From: Chloroflexota bacterium
Lineage (GTDB): Bacteria; Chloroflexota; UBA11872; UBA12225
DNA: 37,763 nt
Direction of reading: 5' to 3'
Assembly: GCA_016199265.1 (NCBI GenBank)
Contig: JACQGX010000389.1
Coordinates: forward strand, 1 to 37,763
In this document: positions 7,412 to 37,763 of the stretch, one piece after another
How positions within the stretch are numbered: position 1 is the first letter of the stretch
Layout of the letters: each line of letters starts with the position of its first letter
Program-made: the position numbers and the translations under genes
The notes under the pieces: generated by a model
What the model was told of the DNA's origin: nothing
The model's database searches: none
What the model saw: the letters and a program-made list of their open reading frames with translations, nothing else

Positions 7412-8005
7412 TCACGCCGCGCCTTGCCACTGCAGCGCTCGGAGGGTGACTTCCATGGCTCGATCTTCACCGGCCTCCTTGTACCTCAACGGGAACCGGC
7501 CGATGGGGCTGCAATACCGCTCAACGAACAACCGAAAGTTCGCTGCCTGTTGTACGATCTCACGGTCGTACAACAGGTGCTCCACATGAGAGTTGCTGAC
7601 GAGCACCACGAACTTCTTTCGCGCCCGAGTGAGTGTGACATTGAATCGACGCAGGTCGAAAATGAACGCTTCTTCGGCGGTGACAAAGTCGGGAGCGCTG
7701 ACGCTATTACTGGCGAACACGACATCTCGCTGCTGTCCCTGGAACCTATCGACCGTGTCCACTTGCGGTTCGGGCCGCCGCGGCAAGACGCCGGACGAGA
7801 CGAGCAGATTAGTGATGGTAGACATCTGCGCACGATGTCGCGTGGTGGTGGCCAGTTGCGCACTCCAAAACCGCCGCAGCGGGTCTTCGTCGCTCGCAGC
7901 GTCGCTAGATGGCAAGTGTCTGCGCAGCAAGGCCGCGAGCGCGGAGATGACCTGTGCCTCGAACGTGTTCGAGAGCGTATTTCGGCGCGCGTCGTAGATT
8001 AAGGG
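7412..8005 (-). pseudogene. SF1 (DNA2/NAM7-type) helicase, C-terminal remnant
   Basis: The minus strand encodes VDTVDRFQGQQRDVVFAS and RFNVTLTRARKKFVVL, helicase motifs V and VI of superfamily 1 UvrD/DNA2-like enzymes. Coding similarity extends upstream to about 8005 (PLIYDARRNTLSN), where the sequence loses helicase character; an in-frame stop lies at 8051-8053. The ORF track can only start it at a TTG (7930). The Walker A half is missing, so it cannot hydrolyse ATP. It is tightly followed by the nuclease gene, suggesting that a helicase-nuclease-motor operon lost its front end. The stretch 8006-8132 shows nothing else. Confidence 0.7.
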
Positions 8006-8132
8006 CGCACGCCGCGCGACGTGGCCAGTGGTAGATGGATGTCTGGCTTGTCATTTGGTCCGGCACGCGCACATGCTACTGCACGCTAGCTCGCGGCGGC
8101 CAACAGCAGTATCATCGTCGGCCGATGCCATA

Positions 8133-9299
8133 TCAGACACGATCCGGCGGCGCCAGGTCTATGCCAATCGCCGAACGTCCGAGTGCCACGGCGCTTCTTA
8201 AGGTGGTGCCAGTACCCATGAAGGGGTCCAACACGACCCCAGGCAGCGTGCCGGCGCCGCACTCGCAGGACGTCCAACCAACAGTCTCTCTCTTAGCGAA
8301 CGTGAACTCGCGAAAGTAGCCACCCAGAGCTGCCTTCGCCTCGGCTGCAAGCGCCTTCACGCGTTCTGAGTTGCGGCCCGTACCGTTCTGGATGTGCAGG
8401 GCCTTGCCGGCATCGGATACGCCCGTGGCCTGGACTGCAGCGATGTGCTCCGCTGTGAGCCCTTTCTCACGAGCGATTTCCATCGCGCGGCGAGCCTGCG
8501 GCCGGTTCGGGTCCAATCGGGCTGTCCGACGAGTCATCCGACGTCGCGGTATCCCGCACTGTGTGCACACTGCGGATGGGCATGCAAGGATGACAGCTCG
8601 CGCCACCAGATCTTCTGGGAATGGAGCCAAATGCGGCTCCATATTGCGGCCCGGCTGTACCTGCCACACGTCGCCTGGATTGGTCCCGTTGCCGTAGTGC
8701 TGTGAGTAGCCGAGAAGATCGTAGTAGTAGTCATTCCGCATGACTAGGTGAAGAACGTACTCGTGTCGATTGGCGAGGCGATCTTTGGCAGGCTCGGGCA
8801 TGCCACCGTCCTTGGCCCAGATGATCCGATTACGCACGATCCAACCATCGTCACGTGCCGCAGCCTCTACACGTCCAGGAATGGCAGCGAGGCTTCGCTT
8901 CCAATACGTGTCACCGATGTTAAGAAAGACGGATCCGGTTGAGCGCAAGACTCGACGCCACTCTCTAAGTGCGTCAACCAGCGCATCGACGTATTCGCCA
9001 GGTGTCGCCTCCTGGCCAATCTGGCTAGCAATCCCGTAGTCGCGCTTTCGCCAATATGGAGGCGATGTCACAACCAGGTCAACTGTGCAAGTGCGCAGTG
9101 GTAGCCTTCTCGCATCTGCGCCAAAGATACGAATATAGGGAGCAACTGTCGGTCTCGGCGCATCTCCCGGTTCCACCATTCTCAACGGAACAGCAGACAC
9201 TGCAATATCTGTGGTCAGCGTGCTCCGGCTGCCGCGACCATTAAGACTACGTTTGGCATCGGCCTCATCGCTCACAATCGTACGAGCCATCGCATCCAT
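8133..9299 (-). CDS. Site-specific DNA methyltransferase (beta class, TSPPYW type)
   Basis: The 388-residue enzyme carries the catalytic motif IV VVTSPPYWRKRDYG early (about residue 78) and the SAM-binding motif I VVLDPFMGTGTTL near the C-terminus (about 355-365). This is the beta-class order found in N4-cytosine and N6-adenine DNA methyltransferases. SPPY favours N4-cytosine, but some adenine enzymes share it. The middle region (NRIIWAKDGGMPEPAKDRLANRHEYV) matches the conserved region between these motifs. A Cys pair (CTQCG, then CECG) could form a zinc-binding insert. The ATG at 9299 and a nearby second ATG are both possible starts. A near-consensus promoter lies upstream at 9414-9442. It may protect host DNA from the adjacent nuclease, or be solitary. 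Confidence 0.85.
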   Translation of the reverse strand: MDAMARTIVSDEADAKRSLNGRGSRSTLTTDIAVSAVPLRMVEPGDAPRPTVAPYIRIFGADARRLPLRTCTVDLVVTSPPYWRKRDYGIASQIGQEATPGEYVDALVDALREWRRVLRSTGSVFLNIGDTYWKRSLAAIPGRVEAAARDDGWIVRNRIIWAKDGGMPEPAKDRLANRHEYVLHLVMRNDYYYDLLGYSQHYGNGTNPGDVWQVQPGRNMEPHLAPFPEDLVARAVILACPSAVCTQCGIPRRRMTRRTARLDPNRPQARRAMEIAREKGLTAEHIAAVQATGVSDAGKALHIQNGTGRNSERVKALAAEAKAALGGYFREFTFAKRETVGWTSCECGAGTLPGVVLDPFMGTGTTLRSAVALGRSAIGIDLAPPDRV

Positions 9300-24135: not shown

Positions 24136-25575
24136 CTATAGGATCGGCAGGTCCGGTGGATAGTAGCCCGGCATGTCTGGAACCGGTTCGCGCACGTCGC
24201 GTTGGGGCCGAGGGCTGGTGGTTGCCTCCCAGGGCTGGCCGCAGCGGGCGCTAATGACGGCCCACTCGCCGGGCGTGAGGTTGCCGTGGTGGTGGTACAG
24301 GAAGCGCCGCAGCCCGGCGCGTGACGCTGCCTCCAGCGTGCGGTCGAGGTCGTGGGGGGTGAACGGCTCGCCGTCGTGGGGCTTGCGGCCGGCGTCGACC
24401 CACGGGCAGACGCGCTCGGGGTCGCGCATCGCGGCGATAGCGCGCTCGGTCTCGCGCACGACGACGGTGTCGAAGAACTCCTGCGGAAAGCCGCGGTCGA
24501 AGTCGCGCAGGCCGGTGATCCCCGGCAGCTCGATGCCGAAGAGCGCCTCGACGACGCGCAGCGCGCCCCATTCGCTCAGGTCGGCGTTCCACTCGGTCAG
24601 CGCCTGGACGTACCGGGCGGCGGTGCCGTACATGCCGTCGAAGCCGCGGTGCCAGAAGTAGTGCTTACAGAGCATGACGTCGAGCGCGTCCGTCAGGCTG
24701 CCGTAGTCGTAGCCGCAGAGCGACGACCACGCCGCCGAGCGCGGTCCGGCCGCGAGCCGGATGGGGCGCCGGGCATGCGTCTGCACCAGCTCGCGCAGGC
24801 GCCCGTAGGTCTCGGTCACCGTGTCCAGGCGGAACGCGAGCCACTCGGCGAGCGCCGGATCGTTGCCCAGCAGGCCGAACGCGCCCAGGAAGCCACCCTT
24901 GCCGCTGCCCCACAGCCGGACGTCGCGGTCGCTCAAGCCGTGCAGCCGGGCGTAGAGCCGGTCCTTGGCTCCTATGAGCCGCTCATAGTTGTACCCCAGG
25001 CGCGTTGCGGCCTCGGCAGCCGCCGGGGGAAGGTCGTCGAAAATGTACGAGCGGCGATTCTGGTGGAAGGGCGCGATCTCGTAGCCCCACTCGGGGCCGT
25101 CGAGCACCGCGCCGTCGGCCATGGGGTACTGCTCGAGGCAGTCGACCAGCCGCGCGGCGGCGGCGACACGCGTGCGGTCGTCGACGAGCATCGGCCCGCC
25201 GCCGGGACCGGCGCCGTAGTGCGGACAGAACAGCCAGACGCTCCAGCCGCGATCCTTGGCCGCCTGGAGCGTGCGCGAAAGCAAGGCGCGCTTCGCGTCG
25301 ACGCCGGCCGGCACACCGGTGGTTGGTGAGGCGGCGGGTGGCTTCCACCAGAGCGAGCCGGTGTTCGCGCTCGGTGGCGGCTCGGTCCCGAAGCGGCGGT
25401 AGACCTCCGGTTTGGGATCGAACGTAAACGACTTGTCCTCGAAAGTCATCGGCCCGATCACCAGGCCGTCGACGCCGCCGGCCTCCCAGGCGTCGAACCA
25501 GCGTTCGTGATTGGCCATTACCGGATCGAGGTGGCGCATCACGTCCATCCACAGACGCAGCCGCTGTTCGGTCAT
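24136..25575 (-). CDS. Protein of unknown family A, possible TIM-barrel carbohydrate enzyme (paralogue of 35943-37316)
   Basis: The ATG at 25575 follows AAGGAGG at eight bases, so it is preferred to the ORF start at 25623. I do not recognise the 479-residue family. There is no leader. Its strand/helix pattern looks like a TIM barrel: ERWFDAWEAGGVDGLVIGP, DRGWSVWLFCPHYG, GAVLDGPEWGYEIAPFHQN, LDVMLCKHYFWHRGFDGMYGT, and RVCPWVDAGRKPHDGEPFTP before LRRFLYHHHGNL. The paralogue at 35943 shares these blocks, including KHYFWHRGFDGMYGT exactly. The DG...E..YE segment places carboxylates at a strand end, as in glycoside hydrolases. It is divergent from the second gntR gene, which probably controls it. 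Confidence 0.7.
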   Translation of the reverse strand: MTEQRLRLWMDVMRHLDPVMANHERWFDAWEAGGVDGLVIGPMTFEDKSFTFDPKPEVYRRFGTEPPPSANTGSLWWKPPAASPTTGVPAGVDAKRALLSRTLQAAKDRGWSVWLFCPHYGAGPGGGPMLVDDRTRVAAAARLVDCLEQYPMADGAVLDGPEWGYEIAPFHQNRRSYIFDDLPPAAAEAATRLGYNYERLIGAKDRLYARLHGLSDRDVRLWGSGKGGFLGAFGLLGNDPALAEWLAFRLDTVTETYGRLRELVQTHARRPIRLAAGPRSAAWSSLCGYDYGSLTDALDVMLCKHYFWHRGFDGMYGTAARYVQALTEWNADLSEWGALRVVEALFGIELPGITGLRDFDRGFPQEFFDTVVVRETERAIAAMRDPERVCPWVDAGRKPHDGEPFTPHDLDRTLEAASRAGLRRFLYHHHGNLTPGEWAVISARCGQPWEATTSPRPQRDVREPVPDMPGYYPPDLPIL

Positions 25576-25670
25576 CGTCTCTACCTCCTTACCGATGATG
25601 AGGAAGTTGGGGCACTCTGACATTTCCTTCGTTCGCTCCGGCAGCCCTTGACCCCAAGCTCAATGCGTGC

Positions 25671-25834: not shown

Positions 25835-26560
25835 ATGCGCACACCTGACACGAACGAGCTCGATACGACCACGCGTCGAGAGCCAAGAGAGCCCGACCTG
25901 GCGACACGCGCCTACGACGGCATTCGGGAAGCGATTCTCACTATGTCGTTTCAGCCGGGCCAGCAGTTGCAGGAGGTGGCGCTGGCGCACTGGCTGGGCA
26001 CGAGTCGGACGCCCGTCCGCGAGGCAATTCGGCGGCTGCAGAGCGAGGGGTTGGTCGAGAGCTCGTCGTCGCGCGGCGTCGTCGTTGCGCAGGTCTCAAT
26101 CGACGACGTCGAGAACGCTTATCTCGTGATCGAAGTGCTCGAAGGCCTCGCCGGCCGGCTCGCTGCCGAGCGCCTGACCGACGAGGGCGCCATCGGCTTG
26201 CGGCGCGTGCTCGACGAGCTACAGCACGCCGCCGCGGCCGCAGATCTCGAGCGCTGGACGCAGCTCGACGCCGAGCTGCACGACACCATCCGTGCCATCG
26301 CCGCCAACCCCAAACTCAACCAGGTAGCGAATCTCGTGTATCCCGTGATCGAGCGGGTGCGGAGCATCTACTTGCGCGAGGGGCACGAGCCCGATCAGGT
26401 GGCGATCGCGACGGCCGACCACTGCGTGATCGGCGAAGCGATTCTTGCTCGCGACGCCACCCGTGCCGAGGCACTTTCGCGGCAGCTCTTCGCCAAGGCT
26501 GGAGCCGATAACGTTCGGCTGCTCAAGCGCTGGGTGTCGCCGCTGCGGCGGAGTTTTTGA
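25835..26560 (+). CDS. GntR-family regulator, FCD subfamily
   Basis: I choose the ATG at 25835; a GTG at 25814 is possible. No strong ribosome site is visible. The 241-residue protein has the winged helix (YDGIREAILTMSFQPGQQLQ, then LAHWLGTSRTPVREAIRRLQSEGLVE) and an FCD domain with LDAELHDTIRAIAANPKL and ATADHCVIGEAIL. The last usual metal-ligand His is not obvious; that helix reads LSRQLFAKAG. Such regulators control sugar-acid and amino-acid use. It sits between family A and a downstream dehydrogenase-aminotransferase-hydrolase set, and probably governs both directions. Confidence 0.88.
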   Translation: MRTPDTNELDTTTRREPREPDLATRAYDGIREAILTMSFQPGQQLQEVALAHWLGTSRTPVREAIRRLQSEGLVESSSSRGVVVAQVSIDDVENAYLVIEVLEGLAGRLAAERLTDEGAIGLRRVLDELQHAAAAADLERWTQLDAELHDTIRAIAANPKLNQVANLVYPVIERVRSIYLREGHEPDQVAIATADHCVIGEAILARDATRAEALSRQLFAKAGADNVRLLKRWVSPLRRSF

Positions 26561-26618
26561 GACAGGCAAGCGGAAAGGGAGTGGCGGAGAGCAAGACAAG
26601 GAGAGGAACGGAGAGTCT

Positions 26619-27713
26619 ATGGGGTCTTTGGGGCAACTGAGCCGTCCGGTGCGTATCGGGTTCATTGGGTGTGGGAGCCACGCCAGCAACAGCATCTACC
26701 CGACGTTTCGGCTCGGCGTGACCGGGTCGCCGCGGCTCGCGGAACCGATCGGCGAGCTCGTCGCCTGCTGTGACCTGGACGAAGGCAAGGCGCGACGCAA
26801 CGCCCGCGCCTTCGGCTTCGAGTGCTGGTACACCGATCACCGGGAAATGCTCGAGCGCGAAGACCTCGACTGCGTCTTTGTGGTCATGCATCCGCGACTC
26901 CAGGCGCCGCTGGCGATCGAGTGCCTCGCAGCGGGCAAGCCGGTCTTCGTGGAAAAGCCCGCCACGGCTACCCTCGTAGCGGCGTACGCCGTGAAGGAGG
27001 CCTGCGAACGTTCCGGGCAGCCGCTGATGATTGGCTTCATGAAGCGCTTTTCTGATCCCTACCGGCGGGCGCGCGAGCTGATGCAGCGACCCGAGTTCGG
27101 CCCCGCCACCTCGTTTGAAGCGCGCTACAACTACGGCCGGTACGCGCCCTTCAGCAGTTACGACTTCATCAACGGCTTCTCCTGCCACGTGCTCGACCTG
27201 ACGCGGTTCTTCATGGGCGACGTGGCGAGTGTTTACGCCTCCTACGTTTCGCGCACCGGCGGCAGTACCGGCCGGCCGCAGACCTACGCCGAGGTGCTCC
27301 AGACGCGCGATCCGTCGGCGTCGCAGCAGGAGGCCTGGTTGCTCAATCTGCAGTTCGAGAGCGGTGCCATCGGCTTCGTCCAGACCAATTGCCTCGAACG
27401 CGTGCAGGAGCGGGTGACGATCACCGGCGTTGGTAGCTGGATCGTCGTCGACGACTGGCGGCGGGTAACCGCCTACATCGGTAATCCCGAGCTGCCGTAC
27501 TACTACGAGCCGAACGACCAGATGCCGTCGGCGCAGTTCGACTTCCGTACGCTCCACGGCTACACCGGCGAGGTGCGCCACTTCGTCGAATGCGTGCGTG
27601 ACGGCCGTGTCCCGACGCCGAACATCGACGACGGGATCGCCCACCTGAAAATCGAGCTGGCGGCGAAGCGCTCGGCCCTGGAAGGGCGTCCGGTGGCGGT
27701 GTCGGAGATTTGA
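26619..27713 (+). CDS. Gfo/Idh/MocA-family oxidoreductase
   Basis: The ATG at 26619 is chosen because the family starts with VRIGFIGCGSHASNSIYP; the ORF track start lies inside gntR. The 364-residue protein has the Rossmann GCGSHA motif, PVFVEKPATATL (EKP catalytic motif) and MIGFMKRFSDPYRRA, and a C-terminal domain with VRHFVECVRDGRVPTPNIDDGIAHLKIE. These enzymes oxidise sugar or inositol hydroxyls with NAD(P). It is clearly paralogous to 29757-30839: both share GFMKRFS/GYMKRFS, NYGRY/TYGRY and NGF..H.LDL.RFFMG. It follows gntR by 58 bases, probably in one operon. Confidence 0.9.
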   Translation: MGSLGQLSRPVRIGFIGCGSHASNSIYPTFRLGVTGSPRLAEPIGELVACCDLDEGKARRNARAFGFECWYTDHREMLEREDLDCVFVVMHPRLQAPLAIECLAAGKPVFVEKPATATLVAAYAVKEACERSGQPLMIGFMKRFSDPYRRARELMQRPEFGPATSFEARYNYGRYAPFSSYDFINGFSCHVLDLTRFFMGDVASVYASYVSRTGGSTGRPQTYAEVLQTRDPSASQQEAWLLNLQFESGAIGFVQTNCLERVQERVTITGVGSWIVVDDWRRVTAYIGNPELPYYYEPNDQMPSAQFDFRTLHGYTGEVRHFVECVRDGRVPTPNIDDGIAHLKIELAAKRSALEGRPVAVSEI

Positions 27714-27785: not shown

Positions 27786-28394
27786 GTGGCAAAGGCGGTA
27801 GATGCGGTAGATACGGAAGGCGGTAGATACGGATGGAAAGAGTGCGAGGATACCCACGACTCGTACTGGACCGATCCGGCGACAACGCCGGGCGGCGGCT
27901 GGTTCACCCACGGCGACCACGCCGTCGACCTGACGCGCTGGCTGTTCGGCGTCGAGTTCATCGAAGTGCTGGCCGACATGCGGAAGCTGCGTTATCCGCA
28001 CTACGACGTCGAGGACTACGGCGTCGCGCACTTCGTGCTCGGTAATGGCGGTACGGCGCTCATTCACTCCGATGCGATTGCGCCGGCGGCGCGCATCGAC
28101 GTCGAGGTGATCTGTCAGAAGGGCGGCATGTCGTACAAGCGTATCCCGGAGCCGCGGCTGAAAGTATGGGGCGCGCCGTCGCTCGGGGCCAACGTCGTCG
28201 AGTATGCCGTTCCCGAAAACTGGGTCGACGCACTCCGCGAGATGACGCGGGGCTTCGTGCGTGCAGTCGAGACCGGTACGGCTCCGCCCATCACCGGCGA
28301 GGACAGCATGCGTGTCATCGAGGTTTCTGAAGCCGCCTACCGCTCCTCGCACGAGGAGCGCCGCGTGCCTATCACGCAGGCATCGGCAGAGTGA
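27786..28394 (+). pseudogene. Gfo/Idh/MocA oxidoreductase, C-terminal fragment
   Basis: The frame has no Rossmann domain. Family-like sequence begins only at DTHDSYWTDPATTPGGGWF and continues with THGDHAVDLTRWLFGVEFIE, FVLGNGGTALIHSDAI, and WVDALREMTRGFVRAVETGTAPPITGEDSMRVIEVSEAAYRS, the usual C-terminal end of these dehydrogenases. About 150 N-terminal residues are missing. Short CGGTAGAT-type repeats (27794-27833) sit exactly where the missing part would begin, suggesting deletion or insertion there. Without a nucleotide-binding half it cannot be an active dehydrogenase, though it might fold. A separate N-terminal fragment lies at 30880-31113. Confidence 0.7.
27794..27833. repeat. Short tandem CGGTAGAT/ACGGA repeats
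   Basis: GGCGGTAGAT, GCGGTAGATACGGA and GGCGGTAGATACGGA occur in a row within 40 bases, at the 5' edge of the dehydrogenase fragment. Confidence 0.7.
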
Positions 28395-29715: not shown

Positions 29716-29761
29716 AGACGAATGACCCTTCGACAAGCTCAAGGCAGGCTAGACGAATGAC
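29716..29761. repeat. 24-bp insert flanked by 11-bp direct repeats
   Basis: AGACGAATGAC occurs at 29716-29726 and 29751-29761, and CTTCGACAAGCTCAAGGCAG lies between them. This core is a dispersed repeat seen in many bacterial genomes (TTCGACAAGCTCA type). The pattern looks like a small insertion with target duplication. The second direct repeat supplies the start codon of the next gene. Confidence 0.6.
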
Positions 29762-30839
29762 GAATGTGGCGCCGGTACGGGTCGGGTTCGTCGGTTGTGG
29801 CGAGCACGCGCGCATGAGTCTCTATCCCAGCCTTCGCTCGGCATTCGGCGGCTCGCCGTCCGGGCTACCGGCGCTCGTCCTGACTCAGCAAGGGCGCGGC
29901 CAGCCGCCGCTCCTCGCCGAGTTGGTTGCCCTCGCCGACCACAAACGCGATCTGGCCGAGCGCGTCGCGGCGTTTCACGGCGTCCGGCGCGTATACACCG
30001 ACCACGTCACAATGCTCGAAGCCGAGCAGCTCGACGCGGTCGTCGTCTGCATGCACCCGCGCCGGCAGGCGCAGGTGGCGATCGATTGTCTCGAGCGCGG
30101 TGTCCACGTTTGGGTCGAGAAACCGCCGGCCGAGACCGTGCATGAGGCGCGCAGGATGGCCGAAGCAGCCGAGCGCACCGGCAAGCACCTCGCCGTCGGC
30201 TACATGAAACGGTTCTCGTATCCATATCAGAGGGCCAAGGCGTTCACCCAGCGTCCCGGCTTCGGGGAACCCTCGGTGTTTGAATCGCGCTTCACCTATG
30301 GCCGGTATCCCGTCGACGTGTACCACTTCCTCAACGGCTTCGCGACGCACCATCTGGACTTGCCGCGCTTCTTCATGGGGGAGATCGAGTCCGTCTCTGC
30401 CGAGCGGGTCGTCCGCGGCATTGGCCTCGAGGGATATGCGCTCAGCTTGCGCTTTGCCAACGGCGGGATCGGCGTCGTCAATGTCAACTGCCTCGAGGGC
30501 GAGCACAACAACTGGAGTGAGCGGGTGGCCGTGACCGGCGTTGGCGGGCGCGTGTTCGTGGAAAACTGGCGCCGCGTCGTCGGCTTCTTACCCGACGACC
30601 CGCAGACATACTACTGGGAACCCGAGGATATCCGCCCGGCCGACGACCAGAACAGCTTAGCGATCCACGGGTGTGTCGGCGAGCTGCGTGACTTCGTCGA
30701 GAGCGTGCGCGAGGGGAGGGCCCCGGCATGCACGATCGACGACGGCATCGCGGCGCTCCGCCTCGAGCGTGCCACCGCGCTCTCAGTCGAGCGCGGCGCC
30801 CGAGTCAGCCTCATAGAAGCGGGTGACGACATTGCCTAG
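29757..30839 (+). CDS. Gfo/Idh/MocA-family oxidoreductase
   Basis: The 360-residue protein starts with VRVGFVGCGEHARMSLYPSL (Rossmann GCGEHA), followed by VVVCMHPRRQAQVAIDCLERG, VWVEKPPAETV (EKP), and LAVGYMKRFSYPYQRA. A C-terminal domain contains FVESVREGRAPACTIDDGIAALRLE. It is a paralogue of 26619-27713, with similar length and motifs throughout. The ribosome site is poor because the start region was rebuilt by the 24-bp repeat insertion. It lies between the aminotransferase and the M20 hydrolase genes and probably acts on the same or a related substrate at another carbon. Confidence 0.9.
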   Translation: MTNVAPVRVGFVGCGEHARMSLYPSLRSAFGGSPSGLPALVLTQQGRGQPPLLAELVALADHKRDLAERVAAFHGVRRVYTDHVTMLEAEQLDAVVVCMHPRRQAQVAIDCLERGVHVWVEKPPAETVHEARRMAEAAERTGKHLAVGYMKRFSYPYQRAKAFTQRPGFGEPSVFESRFTYGRYPVDVYHFLNGFATHHLDLPRFFMGEIESVSAERVVRGIGLEGYALSLRFANGGIGVVNVNCLEGEHNNWSERVAVTGVGGRVFVENWRRVVGFLPDDPQTYYWEPEDIRPADDQNSLAIHGCVGELRDFVESVREGRAPACTIDDGIAALRLERATALSVERGARVSLIEAGDDIA

Positions 30840-30879: not shown

Positions 30880-31113
30880 ATGAAACCAGGTGTGCGGCCG
30901 GTTCGGTTCGCCGTCGTTGGCTTGGGTGCCTTCGGCGAGGCGTATCTTCGCTGTTTGCAGGGGATGCGTGCCGCCGCCGGGGTGGAGATCGCTGCCGTCT
31001 GCTCGCGCGCCGAAGAGCGGGCCCGCTCGCTCGCCGTCGCGCTGGCGCTCGTGCGGTCTGCCGAGGACGACCGCGAAGTGGTCGTAGCGGAGCAAGGAGA
31101 ATGGCGAAAGTAG
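30880..31113 (+). pseudogene. Gfo/Idh/MocA oxidoreductase, N-terminal fragment
   Basis: The frame from ATG 30880 reads RPVRFAVVGLGAFGEAYLRCL and EIAAVCSRAEERARSLA, the first strand-helix-strand of a Rossmann dehydrogenase (GxGxxG). It then loses similarity and stops at 31113. No EKP motif or C-terminal domain follows. Its end overlaps the start of the M20 gene. It may be the missing front of the fragment at 27786-28394, but it lies after it, so a simple insertion cannot explain the order. Confidence 0.65.
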
Positions 31114-32300
31114 TGGCGGACGACGTGCCCGAAGCGCAGCTCGTCCGTCTGCTGAGCGATCTCGTGGCGATCGAGAGCGTCAATCCAGCGTATCCAAGCG
31201 GTGAACGCGGCGAGGGAGCGATGGCCGCCTTCGTCGAGGACTACTGCCGCCGGCTGGGGCTCGACGTGAGTCGCCAGCCGGTATTGCCGGGCCGCGACAA
31301 CGTCCTGGCCGCGCTGCGTGTGCCCGGCGCCCGGCGTACGCTGCTCTTCGAGGTCCACATGGATACCGTGGGCCTGGATGGGCTCGGCGGAGAGGGCCTG
31401 CAGGCGGCGGTGCGCGACGGGCGGCTCTACGGCCGCGGCGCGTGCGACGCCAAAGGTGCCTTGGCCTCGATGCTGGCCGCGCGCGAGCTGTTGCTCGCGC
31501 GCCGGAACGAGCTTGGAGTGAACGTGCTCTTGCTGGCCTCGGTCGACGAGGAATACCAGTACCGCGGCATCCTGAGGTTCATCGATTCGATCCCTGGCGA
31601 TCCGTCGGTCGATGCGGCCGTCGTCGGCGAGCCGACCGAGTTGCGCGTGGTCGTCGCGCACAAGGGCTGCGTCCGGACACGCATTACCACCGTTGGCCGC
31701 GCGGCGCACAGCTCACGCCCTGAGGAAGGTATCAACGCCATCGAGCACATGGCCGGCGTCGTCGCCGCCTTGCGCGAGCACCGCCGCACGATAGCCGAGC
31801 GGCGCCACCCGCTGGTGGGAAATCCGACGCTCAGCATCGGACGTATCTGGGGTGGTACCGCGGTGAATATCGTCCCCGACCGATGCACGATCGAGATCGA
31901 CCGTCGCACCATTCCCGGTGAGAATGCTGCCGGGGCGCTGGCCGAGATCGACGCCGTGCTCGCCGGTTTGCGAAGGAAGGATGGGAGTATCATTGTCAAG
32001 CGAGAGGAACCGTTTGTCGCCGATTGGGCGCTCGACACGCCCGTCGACACCGCCGTCGTGCGGGCGGCGGCGACCGCCTGCCGCGATACCGGAGTACCCG
32101 GCGGACCGGTCGGCGTCGCCTACGGGTCGGACGCGAGCAAGCTGTGGGCGTTACGCGGGATACCGAGCATCGTGCTCGGCCCGGGCTCGATCGCGCAGGC
32201 GCACACAGACGACGAGTACGTGCCGGTGGCCCACCTCTCGCTCGCGGTGCAGGTCTACGCGCGGACCGCCATGCACCTGGCGGCGGCGATCAGCGAATAA
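31101..32300 (+). CDS. M20-family peptidase/deacylase (ArgE/DapE-like)
   Basis: The 399-residue protein has the M20 metal-binding residues: His86 and Asp88 in EVHMDTV, Asp117 in CDAKGA, and Glu150/151 in SVDEEYQ. It also has a later GEPTELRVVVAHKG, a GRAAHSSRPEEGINAIEHM dimerisation-domain motif, and a terminal GPGSIAQAHTDDEYV with the last metal His. Such enzymes cleave N-acyl or peptide bonds in acetylornithine, succinyl-diaminopimelate and carboxypeptidase G2 substrates. Here a role in removing an acyl or amino-acid group from the imported compound is plausible. AAGGAGA abuts the ATG; a GTG four codons later (31113) is an alternative start. Confidence 0.9.
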   Translation: MAKVVADDVPEAQLVRLLSDLVAIESVNPAYPSGERGEGAMAAFVEDYCRRLGLDVSRQPVLPGRDNVLAALRVPGARRTLLFEVHMDTVGLDGLGGEGLQAAVRDGRLYGRGACDAKGALASMLAARELLLARRNELGVNVLLLASVDEEYQYRGILRFIDSIPGDPSVDAAVVGEPTELRVVVAHKGCVRTRITTVGRAAHSSRPEEGINAIEHMAGVVAALREHRRTIAERRHPLVGNPTLSIGRIWGGTAVNIVPDRCTIEIDRRTIPGENAAGALAEIDAVLAGLRRKDGSIIVKREEPFVADWALDTPVDTAVVRAAATACRDTGVPGGPVGVAYGSDASKLWALRGIPSIVLGPGSIAQAHTDDEYVPVAHLSLAVQVYARTAMHLAAAISE

Positions 32301-32362
32301 GGGCCTGGTCCGCTACCAGGCCGCTGCGTGTCAGGGTGTTAGTGTTACCTAAGGAGGTTACG

Positions 32363-33859
32363 ATGAGCAGTACTGATAACGTCAAGAGCGCCTTGGGCGT
32401 TCAGGTCACCGAGCCAGCGGCCGCCGCGCAGAACGCACGCGCTGGGGAGGTCGTGCGGTCAAGGTCGGGCCGTGTGACACGGCGTGCCTTCATCGGCACC
32501 GGGGCCGCCGCGGGAAGCGGCATCGTCCTGGCAGCGTGCGCACCAGGCGGTGGCGGACCGGCGTCAAGTGGGGGGAGTGGCAGCGCCCAGCCGATGGCCA
32601 AGAGCGTCAAAGGTGGAACGTTGTACTTTCTCGACCACACGCTGCAGCAGGCCGTGCGCGACGTCGTCGTCAAGCGCATCGCCGAGTTCGAGCAGAAGTT
32701 CCCGGGCACGAAGATCGAGCACGACGACGCCACGCCCGATAACTCCAAGAAGTTCCCGGTGCTTATCGCCGGTGGAACCTTCCCCGACGTGTCGGTGACG
32801 CACACGGCGTTCGTCGATCAGTATCCGTCCTTCATGGACATCACGCCGTACCTGGCCAGAGATAAGGAGGTGAAGATACCCGACTACTTCGCGGCGGTGC
32901 TCAACGCCTTCAAAGTCCCGGTCAACGGCACGCCGCGGCAGTTGGGCGTTCCGCGTGAGGCGCACGCGACGATTCTGTACTACAACCGCAACGCCATCCA
33001 GGCCGTCGGGCTCAAGGAGCCGACGAAGGACTGGACGCACCAGGACTTCGTCGAATACGGCCTCAAGCTGCGCGAGTGGACGAACGACCCGGCGACGGCG
33101 AAGTGGGCCATCTTCAACGGCACCGGCCTCGGCGGCGCCTCGGCCGGCTTGGCAACGTTCTGGTCGTTCGGCGCCGACTTCTTCAGCGAGGACGGCACCA
33201 AAGCCCTGATCGACCAGCCACAGGCGAGAGAAGCGTTCGAGTACATGCGCGACCTCGTGATCAGGCACCACATCGCGCCGTCGGCGGATGAGCACAAGGC
33301 CAGCGGCCTGACCGGCTCGTCCCAGGCGCTCTTCAACACCGGTCGGTACCTGATGTACGCCTGTAACCAGAACTGCTCGCCCACCACAGCCGGCGTCGAG
33401 ATGGGGTTCTCGTGGGACGTCATGGCGGTGCCGCAGGTGCCCGGCAGGAAGCGCGGCACGCGCCTCGCCGCCAACGCTTACGGTCTGCTGACGCAGGGCC
33501 AGAACAAGAATCCCGATCTGGGGTGGGAGTTCATCAAGTACATTGTCGGCGAAGAGGGGTCGAAGCAGCTCGTCCAGAGCGCGACGCTGTACATGTCGCA
33601 CAAGAGTGCTGCCGATACCTGGGTGGAGACGATGAGTCGTAAGGGTGGTGTCCGCAACGGCAAGGTCGTCGCCGACGTGCTCGACCAGTGGGCACGGCGC
33701 GAGCAGACGCTGCTCCCAGGCTGGGGCAAGGCGATGGCGCCGATCCACCGCGAGTGGGATGCGGTGCTCAACGGCAAGCGGTCAGTCGGCGAAATGATCA
33801 ACGTCGCCAAGGCGGAGGCCGAAGCGGCGCTCGCCGCCGAGCGGGCGGCGGCGCGCTAA
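32363..33859 (+). CDS. ABC substrate-binding lipoprotein (Tat leader)
   Basis: The ATG at 32363 follows AAGGAGGTTACG; the ORF track start lies in the M20 gene. The 498-residue protein has a long N-terminal arm, a twin-arginine leader (RVTRRAFIGTGAAAGSG) and a lipobox ending at Cys59 (VLAAC). The mature part is a family 1 solute-binding protein: GTLYFLDHTLQQAV, FPVLIAGGTFPDVSVTHTAF, HATILYYNRNAIQAVGLKEP, GSSQALFNTGRYLMYACNQN, and DLGWEFIKYIVGEEGSKQLV. It follows the M20 gene by 62 bases and precedes the DUF59 fusion gene, so it probably brings in the substrate of this locus. No transporter membrane genes adjoin. Confidence 0.9.
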   Translation: MSSTDNVKSALGVQVTEPAAAAQNARAGEVVRSRSGRVTRRAFIGTGAAAGSGIVLAACAPGGGGPASSGGSGSAQPMAKSVKGGTLYFLDHTLQQAVRDVVVKRIAEFEQKFPGTKIEHDDATPDNSKKFPVLIAGGTFPDVSVTHTAFVDQYPSFMDITPYLARDKEVKIPDYFAAVLNAFKVPVNGTPRQLGVPREAHATILYYNRNAIQAVGLKEPTKDWTHQDFVEYGLKLREWTNDPATAKWAIFNGTGLGGASAGLATFWSFGADFFSEDGTKALIDQPQAREAFEYMRDLVIRHHIAPSADEHKASGLTGSSQALFNTGRYLMYACNQNCSPTTAGVEMGFSWDVMAVPQVPGRKRGTRLAANAYGLLTQGQNKNPDLGWEFIKYIVGEEGSKQLVQSATLYMSHKSAADTWVETMSRKGGVRNGKVVADVLDQWARREQTLLPGWGKAMAPIHREWDAVLNGKRSVGEMINVAKAEAEAALAAERAAAR

Positions 33860-33911: not shown

Positions 33912-33982
33912 TGTCATCCTGAGCGCAGCGAAGGACCTCCGTAGCGCCGCCGGCGAGGTCCTTCGCTGCGCTCAGGATGACA
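33912..33982. repeat. Perfect 27-bp inverted repeat (MITE-like)
   Basis: Arms 33912-33938 and 33956-33982 are exact reverse complements, separated by 17 bases. The arm begins TGTCATCCTGAGCGCAGCGA, a dispersed repeat I know from many bacterial genomes. It lies between the binding-protein gene and the DUF59 fusion gene and could form a strong RNA hairpin. The remainder of 33860-34042 holds nothing else. Confidence 0.85.
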
Positions 33983-34042: not shown

Positions 34043-35932
34043 ATGAGCATGGACGAAGTGAGCACCAAACATGAACCGCAGGCCGTGCGGGTGGGGTGGG
34101 ATTTGCGGCAAGGAGAATTCACCTACGCCGACCGGACGGACGACGTTGAGACGAAGGTGCGGCTGTTGCGCCAGGCGCAGCAGGACGGCAACTTTGCGCT
34201 GGCAATCGCGCTGGCGGATTCGATCAAGGACACGCTCCAGTGCGAGCAAATGCTCCGCGAGGATCCGGGTGCGCCGGTCGTACCGGCGAGCGCATGGGGT
34301 TCGGTCGGGGAACTGCCGGCGTCCTGGGAAAGTTGGGCCGCCGGTTGGTCGCTTTTCCAGGTGCTTGCGCTCGATGAACCCATTGGGCAGCCGAGGCGCG
34401 GCGAACCGGTCGACGTGCTGATCGCGCTACCGGCTGATCGCGTCGCCGCGCCGGCGCGCGAGGTGCGCGTGGCGCGCGTCGATGCTGCGACCGGAACGCT
34501 TCGGGAGGTCCGCAGCCAGCTCTACAATGAGGTGCGGCGCGGCGGGCAGTGGCTGGCGCGTCTCGTCGTGCTCGCCGACGTACCTGCCCGCGGCCGGAGC
34601 GTCTATCTCGTCTTCTGCGGCAATCCCGCGGCTGAACTGCCCGACTATCCCAGCGAGCTGCGGGTGCACGGCGAGGGATTTGGCCTGGACATCGAGACGG
34701 CGCACTACGTCGCGCGGCTCTCCCGGCAAATGGGGCAGCTCGAGCGGCTCACGTCGAAGCACCGTCACGGGCTGGAGCTCTATGCCGGCGGCGAGGGGCA
34801 CGGCGAGCCGCCCAACATCGACTGGGCGCACGATTACCTCGCCTCCGGCAAGTTTCAGAAGTTCCGCGTCACCAACTGGGAGTCGTGCCCAAACTATGAG
34901 GTTGTGCGCGGGCCGCTGTGCACAATCGTGCGACGGTTCGGCTTCCCGCACAGTCCGGCGCATCCGCTGTTTACACCGAGCCGGCTCTTCATCGACGTGT
35001 CGTACACGTTCTACGGCGACCTGCCCTACCTCCTAAAAGACGGCCGGATGGACGCCGCCCAGGATTTCACTCTCAACTACTCGCGCGACGACGAGTGGGT
35101 CTTCTCCGGCTATTCGTTCACCGATTCCCTGTGGATGGACGAGCAGTGGCGGCTGCACGAAGGCCCGGTACCGCGCGAGCACGCCGACCGGCTGTGGGGC
35201 GTCGGCTTCTTCAACCGCACCAGCCGGGACAGCTTCTTTGCCATCCACCTGGCGCATCATCTCGAGGTGCCGCCGAGCGCCGGTCCCCATTCGGCCGTAG
35301 ACGCGCCGCTGTACCACAGCGGCCCGCCGGTCTTGAACTATGCCGGGCACGGGCAGCTCTGGAGCCGGTGGCAGCTCCGCCAGGACCCCAAGCTCGTCGC
35401 TGGGCTCGGCCTGGTGCAGCGCAATGCCTATCTGCTCGGCGAGTACCCCGAGGACGGCGGTGCGGCCTCCCTCGAAGAACTGGCGCAGCGGCTGCTCCAT
35501 CCGGTTGCTGCGTCCTCGGCGCGCGGCGCGCTGCCCGATGATCTGGGCTCGCCCGCGGGCGTTACGGACCGGCCACTCGCGCGGCCCGGCGAGCGCCCCG
35601 TCGACCAAGACCGCAAGCGCGCGATCTGGGAAGCGCTGCGGGAAGTGCGTGATGAGATGTTCTACACCGTCGATGCAAACGTCGTCGATATGGGCTACGT
35701 TTACGACGTACGTCTGCGGGGCGACGAGGTGCACGTGCTGATGACGATGCCGCACCGCGGCCGGCCCAGGTACAACTGGCTGGCCAACTCCATGCGCCGC
35801 CGGCTTGAGCAGCTTCCCGGTGTCCGCTCGGTCGTCGTCGACCTGACGTGGGAGCCGGCGTGGACGCCCAACCGCCTGACCGACGCCGGCCGGCGGGCGA
35901 TGGGGCTGGGCGAGGCGGTTGCGACGACGTGA
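34043..35932 (+). CDS. Unknown large protein with C-terminal MIP18/DUF59-like domain
   Basis: The 629-residue protein starts at ATG 34043 (a second ATG is two codons later) without a strong ribosome site. Residues ~75-500 form a domain I cannot name; segments such as YLVFCGNPAAELPDYPSELR and FGLDIETAHYVARLSRQMGQ look beta-sandwich-like, as in some polysaccharide-active enzymes. Residues ~523-625 match the MIP18/PaaD-type domain: IWEALREVRDEM, VDANVVDMGYVYDVRL, LPGVRSVVVDLTWEPAWTP, RLTDAGRRAMGL. In that family a reactive Cys normally follows the TxxxG turn (GCP); here it is GRP, so Arg574 replaces it. No leader, so cytoplasmic. The next gene begins ten bases after its stop. Confidence 0.65.
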   Translation: MSMDEVSTKHEPQAVRVGWDLRQGEFTYADRTDDVETKVRLLRQAQQDGNFALAIALADSIKDTLQCEQMLREDPGAPVVPASAWGSVGELPASWESWAAGWSLFQVLALDEPIGQPRRGEPVDVLIALPADRVAAPAREVRVARVDAATGTLREVRSQLYNEVRRGGQWLARLVVLADVPARGRSVYLVFCGNPAAELPDYPSELRVHGEGFGLDIETAHYVARLSRQMGQLERLTSKHRHGLELYAGGEGHGEPPNIDWAHDYLASGKFQKFRVTNWESCPNYEVVRGPLCTIVRRFGFPHSPAHPLFTPSRLFIDVSYTFYGDLPYLLKDGRMDAAQDFTLNYSRDDEWVFSGYSFTDSLWMDEQWRLHEGPVPREHADRLWGVGFFNRTSRDSFFAIHLAHHLEVPPSAGPHSAVDAPLYHSGPPVLNYAGHGQLWSRWQLRQDPKLVAGLGLVQRNAYLLGEYPEDGGAASLEELAQRLLHPVAASSARGALPDDLGSPAGVTDRPLARPGERPVDQDRKRAIWEALREVRDEMFYTVDANVVDMGYVYDVRLRGDEVHVLMTMPHRGRPRYNWLANSMRRRLEQLPGVRSVVVDLTWEPAWTPNRLTDAGRRAMGLGEAVATT

Positions 35933-35942
35933 GGGTACCGGT

Positions 35943-37316
35943 ATGCCACTGACTCCCTGGATCTTCGTGCAAGACCCGCTGGAACGCTGGCTCGCCGACT
36001 ACCGGCGTACGTTTGACGCCTGGCACGACGGCGGCGTACGCGGGATCGTCGTGGGCTACCTCCGCTGGCGGCAGGACGACGGATCGATGGTCCCGTGCTT
36101 TTCGGTTGACCCGAGCGCGTACTCGTCGTTCGGCGTGCCGCTACCTCCAGAGACACCACGCGACCCGGACAAGGAGCGGCTGTTCTCCACGATGCTCGAC
36201 GATGCGGCGGCGCGCGGCTGGGAGATTCTGTTTTTCGGCGCACGGACGAGTGCGCGACTTGGCCCTGTCCACCCGCTCCCCGGCGATCCTTTTGGTGCCG
36301 CTGCCTACGCCGCCGGCGTGCAGAGCGCACTGTCTGCTTACCCCCAGGCGCAGGGCTGGGTCATCGACGGCGCCGGCGAGCACCACTACGAGCTGGCCTT
36401 CCACCACGATGGGGAGCTCTTCGAGATCCGCGAGCACGAGCGTCGGTGGCTCGAAGCGCTGGGTGCGGACGTGGACCGCATGGAGCGTGGCATCGCGCAC
36501 CTGCGCGACCGGTTCCATCGCCTCACGCCGTCGCTCGTCCGGTACCACACGCCTGCCGGGCTGCTGGCAGGCCTGGCGCTGTTCGACCTCACCGAAGATG
36601 CCCTGTACTGGCTGCGCATGCGCCGGGAGACGGCGCTGGCCTACATGGCCGCTGTCCGCGAGCAGATCGCCCGGATACCGCGCGCGGTCAAGTTAGGAGC
36701 GATCCCGCGCACGGCCACGTTCTCCGCGCTGGCGACCCAAGACTACCACCGGATGCCCCGGTACTTCGACTACATCTTCCCCAAGCACTACTTCTGGCAC
36801 CGGGGCTTCGACGGGATGTACGGCACGGTGGCGCGGTGGGTGCGGCGGCTCGGCGACTGGAACCCCCGCCTGAGCGAGGCCGACTGCTTTGCCGTCGTCA
36901 AAGCCTGGTTTGGCTTACAGTTGCCCGGCATCGAGTCGCTGGCCGACATGGAAATGGGGTTCCCAGACGCGTTCTTCACCGAGGTCGTCGCCACCGAGAC
37001 GCGGCGTGCCCTCGCCGCCGTCGGTGACCCCAACCGAGTCATCGCCTGGGTCTCGAGTGGGCGGCAGCCGCACGCCGGCGACCCGATGCCGGCGCGCGAC
37101 CTCTACCGCATCCTGACGGTGTCGGAAGAGGCAGGGCTGCGGCGATTCATCTACCATCCCGCCGGCGCGCTAGGCGCGGCCGAGTGGAGTACGCTCTCCC
37201 GGCTGTGCGGTACGCCGTGGCGGGAAAACCCAGACGATCCCAATGCCTACTGGCCGCCCGATACGCCCAAGCCCGACACGTTTGGCGGCGGGCGGGTGCC
37301 GCAACGAAGAGGGTGA
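35943..37316 (+). CDS. Protein of unknown family A, possible TIM-barrel carbohydrate enzyme (paralogue of 24136-25575)
   Basis: The ATG at 35943 lies ten bases after the DUF59 fusion stop, so the two are co-transcribed. The 457-residue protein shares with the paralogue the N-terminal RTFDAWHDGGVRGIVVGYL, ARGWEILFFGART, a VIDGAGEHHYELAFHHDGEL block equivalent to LDGPEWGYEIAPFHQN, KHYFWHRGFDGMYGT, FGLQLPGIESLADMEMGFPD, and a C-terminal VSSGRQPHAGDPMPARDLYR to LRRFIYHPAGAL. Conserved D-G, E and Y-E in the middle block and the H-rich KHYFWH are candidate catalytic residues. I do not know the family. Two copies flank one catabolic locus, suggesting related substrates or a heteromeric enzyme. Confidence 0.7.
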   Translation: MPLTPWIFVQDPLERWLADYRRTFDAWHDGGVRGIVVGYLRWRQDDGSMVPCFSVDPSAYSSFGVPLPPETPRDPDKERLFSTMLDDAAARGWEILFFGARTSARLGPVHPLPGDPFGAAAYAAGVQSALSAYPQAQGWVIDGAGEHHYELAFHHDGELFEIREHERRWLEALGADVDRMERGIAHLRDRFHRLTPSLVRYHTPAGLLAGLALFDLTEDALYWLRMRRETALAYMAAVREQIARIPRAVKLGAIPRTATFSALATQDYHRMPRYFDYIFPKHYFWHRGFDGMYGTVARWVRRLGDWNPRLSEADCFAVVKAWFGLQLPGIESLADMEMGFPDAFFTEVVATETRRALAAVGDPNRVIAWVSSGRQPHAGDPMPARDLYRILTVSEEAGLRRFIYHPAGALGAAEWSTLSRLCGTPWRENPDDPNAYWPPDTPKPDTFGGGRVPQRRG

Positions 37317-37408: not shown

Positions 37409-37763
37409 TCAGACCAGGTGCTGCAGACCGTACAGCGCCGCCGGATTGTCCCGGAACAGACAGCGTCCCACATCGAGGGCCTCCGACTCGCTCATGATGC
37501 CGTCTTCCACCAGGTCGGCCAGGGTCGTGGCGACATTGTGGCGCGCCATGATCAGGTGGCCATAGATCGTATCCACCCAGTACAGGTCGTCCCCGAAGGC
37601 GAGAACCTTGTTGGCCGGCACCATGCGCAGCCACTCTCGGAGTGCGGCCTGGCAGGCCACCGGCGAGTAGATGTGAATCCACGACATGTTCAGGTAGACG
37701 TTGGCGCACGTCTTGGCCAGCACGGCGGCCTCGCGCAGGTAGGGGAACCCCGCGTGCGAGATG
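37409..37763 (-). CDS. Amidohydrolase-family TIM-barrel protein, C-terminal part (5' end outside window)
   Basis: The frame is open to the right edge, so the gene starts beyond the window. The visible residues include HAGFPYLREAAVLAKTCANVYLNMSW and the terminal AFGDDLYWVDTIYGH, in which FGDD supplies the active-site Asp of the amidohydrolase 2 group. The C-terminal helix DVGRCLFRDNPAALYGL is characteristic: a metal-enzyme barrel followed by the NPxxLY-type motif. These enzymes hydrolyse lactones, decarboxylate or act on sugar acids. It converges on the second family A gene; the 92 bases between them hold nothing recognisable. Confidence 0.8.
   Translation of the reverse strand, partial: ISHAGFPYLREAAVLAKTCANVYLNMSWIHIYSPVACQAALREWLRMVPANKVLAFGDDLYWVDTIYGHLIMARHNVATTLADLVEDGIMSESEALDVGRCLFRDNPAALYGLQHLV

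Follow-up and report, generated by a model that had tools for sequence, protein, structure and literature searches.

DUF59 proteins are regarded as factors of Fe-S assembly and receive the automatic annotation 'metal-sulfur cluster assembly factor'. The stretch of Chloroflexota DNA analysed here (the window, 37,763 bp) encodes, within a sugar locus, a large protein whose C-terminus resembles DUF59 but has arginine where the conserved cysteine of the GCP turn is expected. The question raised by this locus was whether the domain is a genuine DUF59 domain, whether the replacement is a fixed feature or a sign of decay, and what such a domain might do in a sugar locus.

Identification of the C-terminal DUF59 domain

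The fusion protein (629 aa) was encoded by an uninterrupted ORF at 34043–35932 (+), which was supported by homologues. Its C-terminal DUF59/FeS_assembly_P domain (residues 519–622; 35597–35908, +) was defined by Pfam, PDB sequences and fold. PF01883 matched residues 525–597 (E = 5.5e-9) with a score of 36.6 bits, above the curated cut-off of 23.5. When the two parts of the protein were searched separately, as the first-pass annotation had proposed, the C-terminal 114 aa matched PF01883 (E = 2.6e-10), and residues 1–515 had no Pfam match even at E ≤ 10. NCBIfam gave subthreshold matches of the C-terminus to the SUF_assoc and PaaD models.

In phmmer searches against the PDB, the fusion protein matched TTHB138 (2cu6; E = 1.5e-12) and TM0487 (1uwd; E = 2.8e-9), and in these alignments its GRP lay on the GCP of TTHB138 and on the Cys-Pro of TM0487. 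The DUF59 part of the predicted structure had the fold of 3cq2 (TM-score 0.85 over the target, rmsd 1.8 Å). The fusion shared this fold and the motifs NVVDMG-YVYDV and WEPAWTP with SufT, TTHB138, TM0487, MIP18/CIAO2 and PaaD; it differed from canonical DUF59 proteins in the Arg for Cys, in the swapped DPE and TT of the pocket and in the attached 515-aa core. The C-terminus is a true DUF59/FeS_assembly_P domain, as its sequence pattern had first suggested.

Fixed replacement of the cysteine by arginine

The motif MPHRGRP (residues 569–575; 35747–35767, +) stood in place of the canonical (T)TPGCP. The residue at the GCP cysteine position was R574 (codon CGG, 35762–35764), so the arginine noted in the first-pass annotation was correctly read, and a survey of homologues in several phyla showed that they share both the fusion and the Arg rather than keeping the Cys. 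The motif MPH[R/K/H]GRP occurred in 29/29 aligned members of clade 1 and MPYAGR[E/A] in 8/8 members of the divergent clade 2, giving Arg at the Cys position in 37/37 C-terminal fusions compared. All six Arg codons occurred at this position in the scan of fusion loci, and since the residue is invariant in 37 sequences while all six codons are in use, it is held by selection. R574 was one of 7 invariant columns among about 104 in the DUF59 domain of clades 1 and 2, although the identity of this domain between the two clades was 28%. A lone MPHGGER match at the Cys position was rejected because its frame was full of stops.

The canonical pocket motif has been defined as DPE, T and C (PMC9045647). 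In the fusion, these residues were swapped as a set (DEMFYTV for DPE.., PHR for TTP, and R for C). SufT/MIP18 factors carry a hyper-reactive Cys in G-C-P. A published survey of 761 SufT homologues found the Cys in every one (PMC4982691), and it was also kept in the 22 ordinary DUF59 loci used here for comparison. The window's genome encoded two other DUF59 proteins, one Mrp-fused and one SufT-like, each with the Cys; the SufT-like gene adjoined a SufU-like frame. A search of the open-licence literature turned up no account of a fusion of this kind or of a DUF59 without the Cys.

The change from Cys to Arg might be read as decay of a useless appended domain, and one member with a degraded stand-alone copy (L013/L058) would fit this. 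The Arg in 37/37 sequences, its six different codons and the fixed surrounding motif speak against it, as does the comparable conservation of the two parts in clade 1 (mean identity 54% for DUF59 and 56% for the core). The conservation of Arg, motif and domain already refutes decay, which keeps hardly any probability; the Cys-to-Arg fusions are a conserved family.

Distribution and phylogeny of the fusion

A single scan across 84,980 species genomes yielded 15 loci, most of which held full-length fusions. The MAGs concerned bore the names Gemmatimonadota, Planctomycetota, Poribacteria, Latescibacteria, Chloroflexi and Myxococcota; according to a survey of the Latescibacteria, several of the 'Gemmatimonadota'-named MAGs belong in that phylum. 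Within the Chloroflexota, core profile matches were confined to the window's own family (7/400 genomes), and core relatives were present in 27/64 genomes of the Latescibacteria phylum, weaker relatives counted. Clade 1 members were 48–62% identical to the window protein, and clade 2 about 30–34%; the DUF59 domains of clade 2 scored near the PF01883 cut-off (20.9–25.1 bits, cut-off 23.5).

In a maximum-likelihood tree, the fused DUF59 domains all fell on one side of a branch (support 98/93). The same single branch was recovered after a permuted form was added (97/92; 97–98% ultrafast bootstrap), while the finer branching was uncertain because of the few columns. The fusion apparently arose once, long ago. 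In the permuted form (L180:7018–8697, +), DUF59 came first and the core second, an order that is expected if both domains must work together; its motif was LFNRGHV, in which His replaces Cys. A joint origin of the conserved core loops and DUF59 was considered and then abandoned, because L180, first taken as lacking DUF59, carries it at the N-terminus.

Directly before a gene of the CL2 family (described below), genome G001 carried an RGR-type DUF59 standing alone (L058, about 7958–8332). This domain fell inside clade 1 of the tree and is therefore probably a remnant after loss of the core; it had lost conserved tryptophan/proline positions, and the copy may be decaying. Core relatives lacking DUF59 were also found (L161–L164 and L166), some with signal-peptide-like starts as judged by eye. 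One relative of the fusion (L044:2146–3432), from a MAG with the label Myxococcota, retained the DUF59 domain although a stretch of about 180 residues within the large beta domain (query 259–435) was missing.

No relative of the fusion was found in viral contigs. In plasmids, no place covered most of the query, and among the matches listed only DUF59-sized ones occurred; one of these, in a Mesorhizobium plasmid, adjoined a cytochrome oxidase locus.

DUF59 fusions with P-loop NTPase, PaaJ, PqqD and DUF1858 are known, and the surveyed ones keep the Cys (PMC4982691). The present fusion resembles them in using DUF59 as a module of a larger protein, but none of them was described with its core.

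Structure of the N-terminal core

The AlphaFold2 model of the fusion protein (20 sequences) had a mean pLDDT of 76.6 and a pTM of 0.82. Its helical N-terminus was short and was followed by a beta domain at 104–192, a large beta domain at 207–467 and then DUF59; the model confirmed the beta-rich nature predicted for the first ~500 residues. The N-terminal helical segment (about residues 28–99; 34124–34339, +) contained model helices at 35–47 and 51–72; it was present in clade 1, and the clade 2 profile matches began at about position 54–59. Model and conservation together delimited the first beta domain (residues 102–205; 34346–34657, +) and the second, large one, which was galactose-mutarotase/GH38C-like (residues 206–470; 34658–35452, +).

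Most sequences of all three clades kept R118, E121, E140, R142 and Q159 in the first beta domain and H253, R298, Y321, R348, D350, E351, W440 and R442 in the large one; the same was true of W102, N194, W364, N461 and Y463. The fully invariant core residues included R142, Q159, R298, Y321, R348, E351 and W440. The charged and aromatic character of these conserved residues points to a putative binding or active site, and judging from sequence conservation the residues may be catalytic; the core could also be a non-catalytic sugar-binding scaffold. Model confidence was low in the best-conserved core loops (249–278 and 304–310) and in the 570–580 block, and an active site was not visible in the model because of the low confidence of these two loops.

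The best Foldseek matches were GH38 alpha-mannosidases, PL26 exo-rhamnogalacturonan lyase and galactose mutarotase, with a TM-score to the query of 0.4 or less in every case; a viral fold library gave only weak matches that were not informative. For GH38 (E = 6.5e-9; TM-score to query below 0.4), the C-terminal beta domains (PF07748 region) likewise comprise a small beta-sandwich and, after it, a large super-sandwich. Comparison of the core with these domains by hhalign gave a probability of 10% (clade 1 only, alignment A2) and, in one pair, of 69% (E = 4.5e-5; all clades, alignment A4). GH38 enzymes have a catalytic alpha/beta domain with a nucleophile Asp, whereas the fusion has short helices and beta domains before DUF59, and no GH38 match was found in Pfam. 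The match to the PL26 lyase (E = 2.6e-7) extended over about 515 columns at a TM-score to query of about 0.39 and an rmsd of 8 Å or more; PL26 combines PcRGLX domains with a helical barrel, and the barrel was missing from the fusion model. PF19501 (PL26) had no match in 101 Chloroflexota genomes, the window's genome among them. Galactose mutarotase shared the large beta-sandwich fold with the core; the fusion differed in its additional beta domain and its other conserved residues (about 12% identity).

Gene neighbourhood of the fusion

The gene before the fusion encoded an extracellular solute-binding protein of an ABC transporter (SBP_bac_1; 32024–33859, +). Related Chloroflexota loci contained relatives of this protein close to the fusion or to CL2. 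Other Pfam matches in the window were a GFO/IDH/MocA oxidoreductase (29757–30839, +), an M20 peptidase/deacylase-like protein (31101–32300, +), class-V aminotransferase, SDR, ThuA, aldose epimerase and more GFO/IDH/MocA. A partial Amidohydrolase_2 gene at the window edge (37409–37763, −) was a neighbour in related loci too.

The neighbours in other fusion loci were mannonate dehydratase UxuA, SDR, enolase-superfamily, GFO/IDH/MocA, PhyH dioxygenases and sulfatases, with sodium:solute symporter, MFS and ABC sugar transporters nearby and a weak GH88 match below the cut-off. The common theme is the catabolism of sugar acids and (sulfated) polysaccharides, with no one operon common to all. As the immediate neighbours of the fusion vary outside the Chloroflexota family, the pathway was deduced from this theme and not from a conserved operon. 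The Pfam matches agreed with the initial view of a sugar locus, in place of the suf/Fe-S gene context of SufT/MIP18.

Fe-S enzymes include some sugar-acid dehydratases. As a true DUF59 homologue, the domain might then still aid Fe-S insertion through non-Cys residues, for a client in sugar catabolism such as a dehydratase of this kind. Neither UxuA nor the enolase-superfamily enzymes belong to the Fe-S proteins, and no Fe-S dehydratase was a consistent neighbour in the fusion loci. With Cys, DPE and TT all replaced, and the Cys universal in the SufT survey cited above, this role is improbable.

PhyH-type dioxygenase genes or cluster relatives lay within five genes of the fusion in 12/39 loci (L034, L182, L184, L185, L187, L188, L190, L193 and L175–L178). 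In the window, a GFO/IDH/MocA gene (26445–27710, +) was followed by what seems to be just the C-terminal part of a second one (27786–28391, +; 202 aa), possibly a truncated gene or a frameshift. A perfect 28-nt inverted repeat (TGTCATCCTGAGCGCAGCGAAGGACCTC) preceded the fusion gene at 33912–33982; its 24-nt core had 22 matches in the genome (up to 2 mismatches) and 0 for the reversed control, and the repeat is a dispersed element.

Predicted role of the fusion protein

That the DUF59 domain was recruited out of Fe-S assembly, as the first-pass annotation had suspected, is well supported because the family goes back to one origin, with Cys fixedly changed to Arg and both DPE and TTPxC replaced, and because it combines sugar-catabolism neighbourhoods with separate Cys-bearing DUF59 proteins in the genome. 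The role then suggested for it, in binding or oligomerisation, is plausible. Our favoured explanation, held with modest confidence, is that the fusion is a cytosolic protein of carbohydrate catabolism in which an Fe-S-assembly fold has been repurposed as a binding or assembly module.

The core would be a pair of beta domains of the GH38-mannosidase/PL26-lyase kind with conserved charged and aromatic residues, to which a DUF59 domain from the Fe-S-assembly superfamily became fused. In one apparent founding event, the DPE/TTPxC signature would have been lost and the loop MPH[R/K]GRP gained (MPYAGR in the sister clade). The Arg loop most likely binds the core, a partner or an anionic sugar and would not serve metal or sulfur transfer. 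The protein is predicted to be cytosolic and is probably an enzyme, or a subunit of one, acting on acidic (uronate-type) oligosaccharides; we infer both activity and substrate.

The family would be a clear case of a fold that leaves the Fe-S pathway, with a key residue fixedly replaced at one traceable evolutionary point. It offers a natural experiment on the DUF59 fold without its Cys and a warning against automatic annotation.

CL2, a candidate partner of the fusion

The end of the fusion gene was overlapped by CL2, a TIM-barrel glycosidase-like gene (35919–37316, +; likely start about 35943), and a second CL2 paralogue (24136–25623, −) was 37% identical to the first. CL2 matched no Pfam family, and the PDB sequences gave nothing credible. 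The barrel in its model (pLDDT 88.3) was nearest to the PgaB C-terminal glycosidase, GH18 and GH164, and Glu146 was invariant in CL2.

Every Chloroflexota fusion locus that was read had CL2 next to the fusion, as did four clade 2 loci, and CL2 homologues were present in 11/13 fusion genomes outside the Chloroflexota. It was rare in 301 sampled Chloroflexota genomes, with strong matches in all 5 fusion genomes and 4 others (Fisher p = 6e-9, a value that overstates independence because the genomes include relatives). These data point to a predicted, unnamed two-component sugar-degrading system of fusion and CL2 in uncultured Chloroflexota, Latescibacterota, Poribacteria and Planctomycetota.

A more specific version of the favoured explanation, compatible with it, is that DUF59 serves mainly for oligomerisation or partner docking (as a homodimer, or with CL2 or another enzyme) and that the core alone does the chemistry. 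The co-occurrence of fusion and CL2 in the Chloroflexota fits this suggestion, as do the core relatives lacking DUF59 and the RGR-type stand-alone domain that persists beside CL2 in G001. SufT of Mtb homodimerises, does not bind Fe and requires its Cys for partner binding (PMC9045647), so that canonical DUF59 function depends on protein contacts. However, CL2 does not adjoin the fusion in most other phyla, and the G001 copy shows the signs of possible decay described above. A docking role is a tentative proposal with rather less than an even chance.

More doubtful is a new carbohydrate-active enzyme family in which DUF59 would supply part of the active site. An acidic sugar would be bound at the mouth of the beta core, its carboxylate or sulfate being gripped by the invariant Arg together with the His/Lys/Arg of MPH[R/K]GR, and the CL2 barrel would act alongside the enzyme. 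In Latescibacteria-type genomes, CL2 was present in multiple copies (up to 10 matches).
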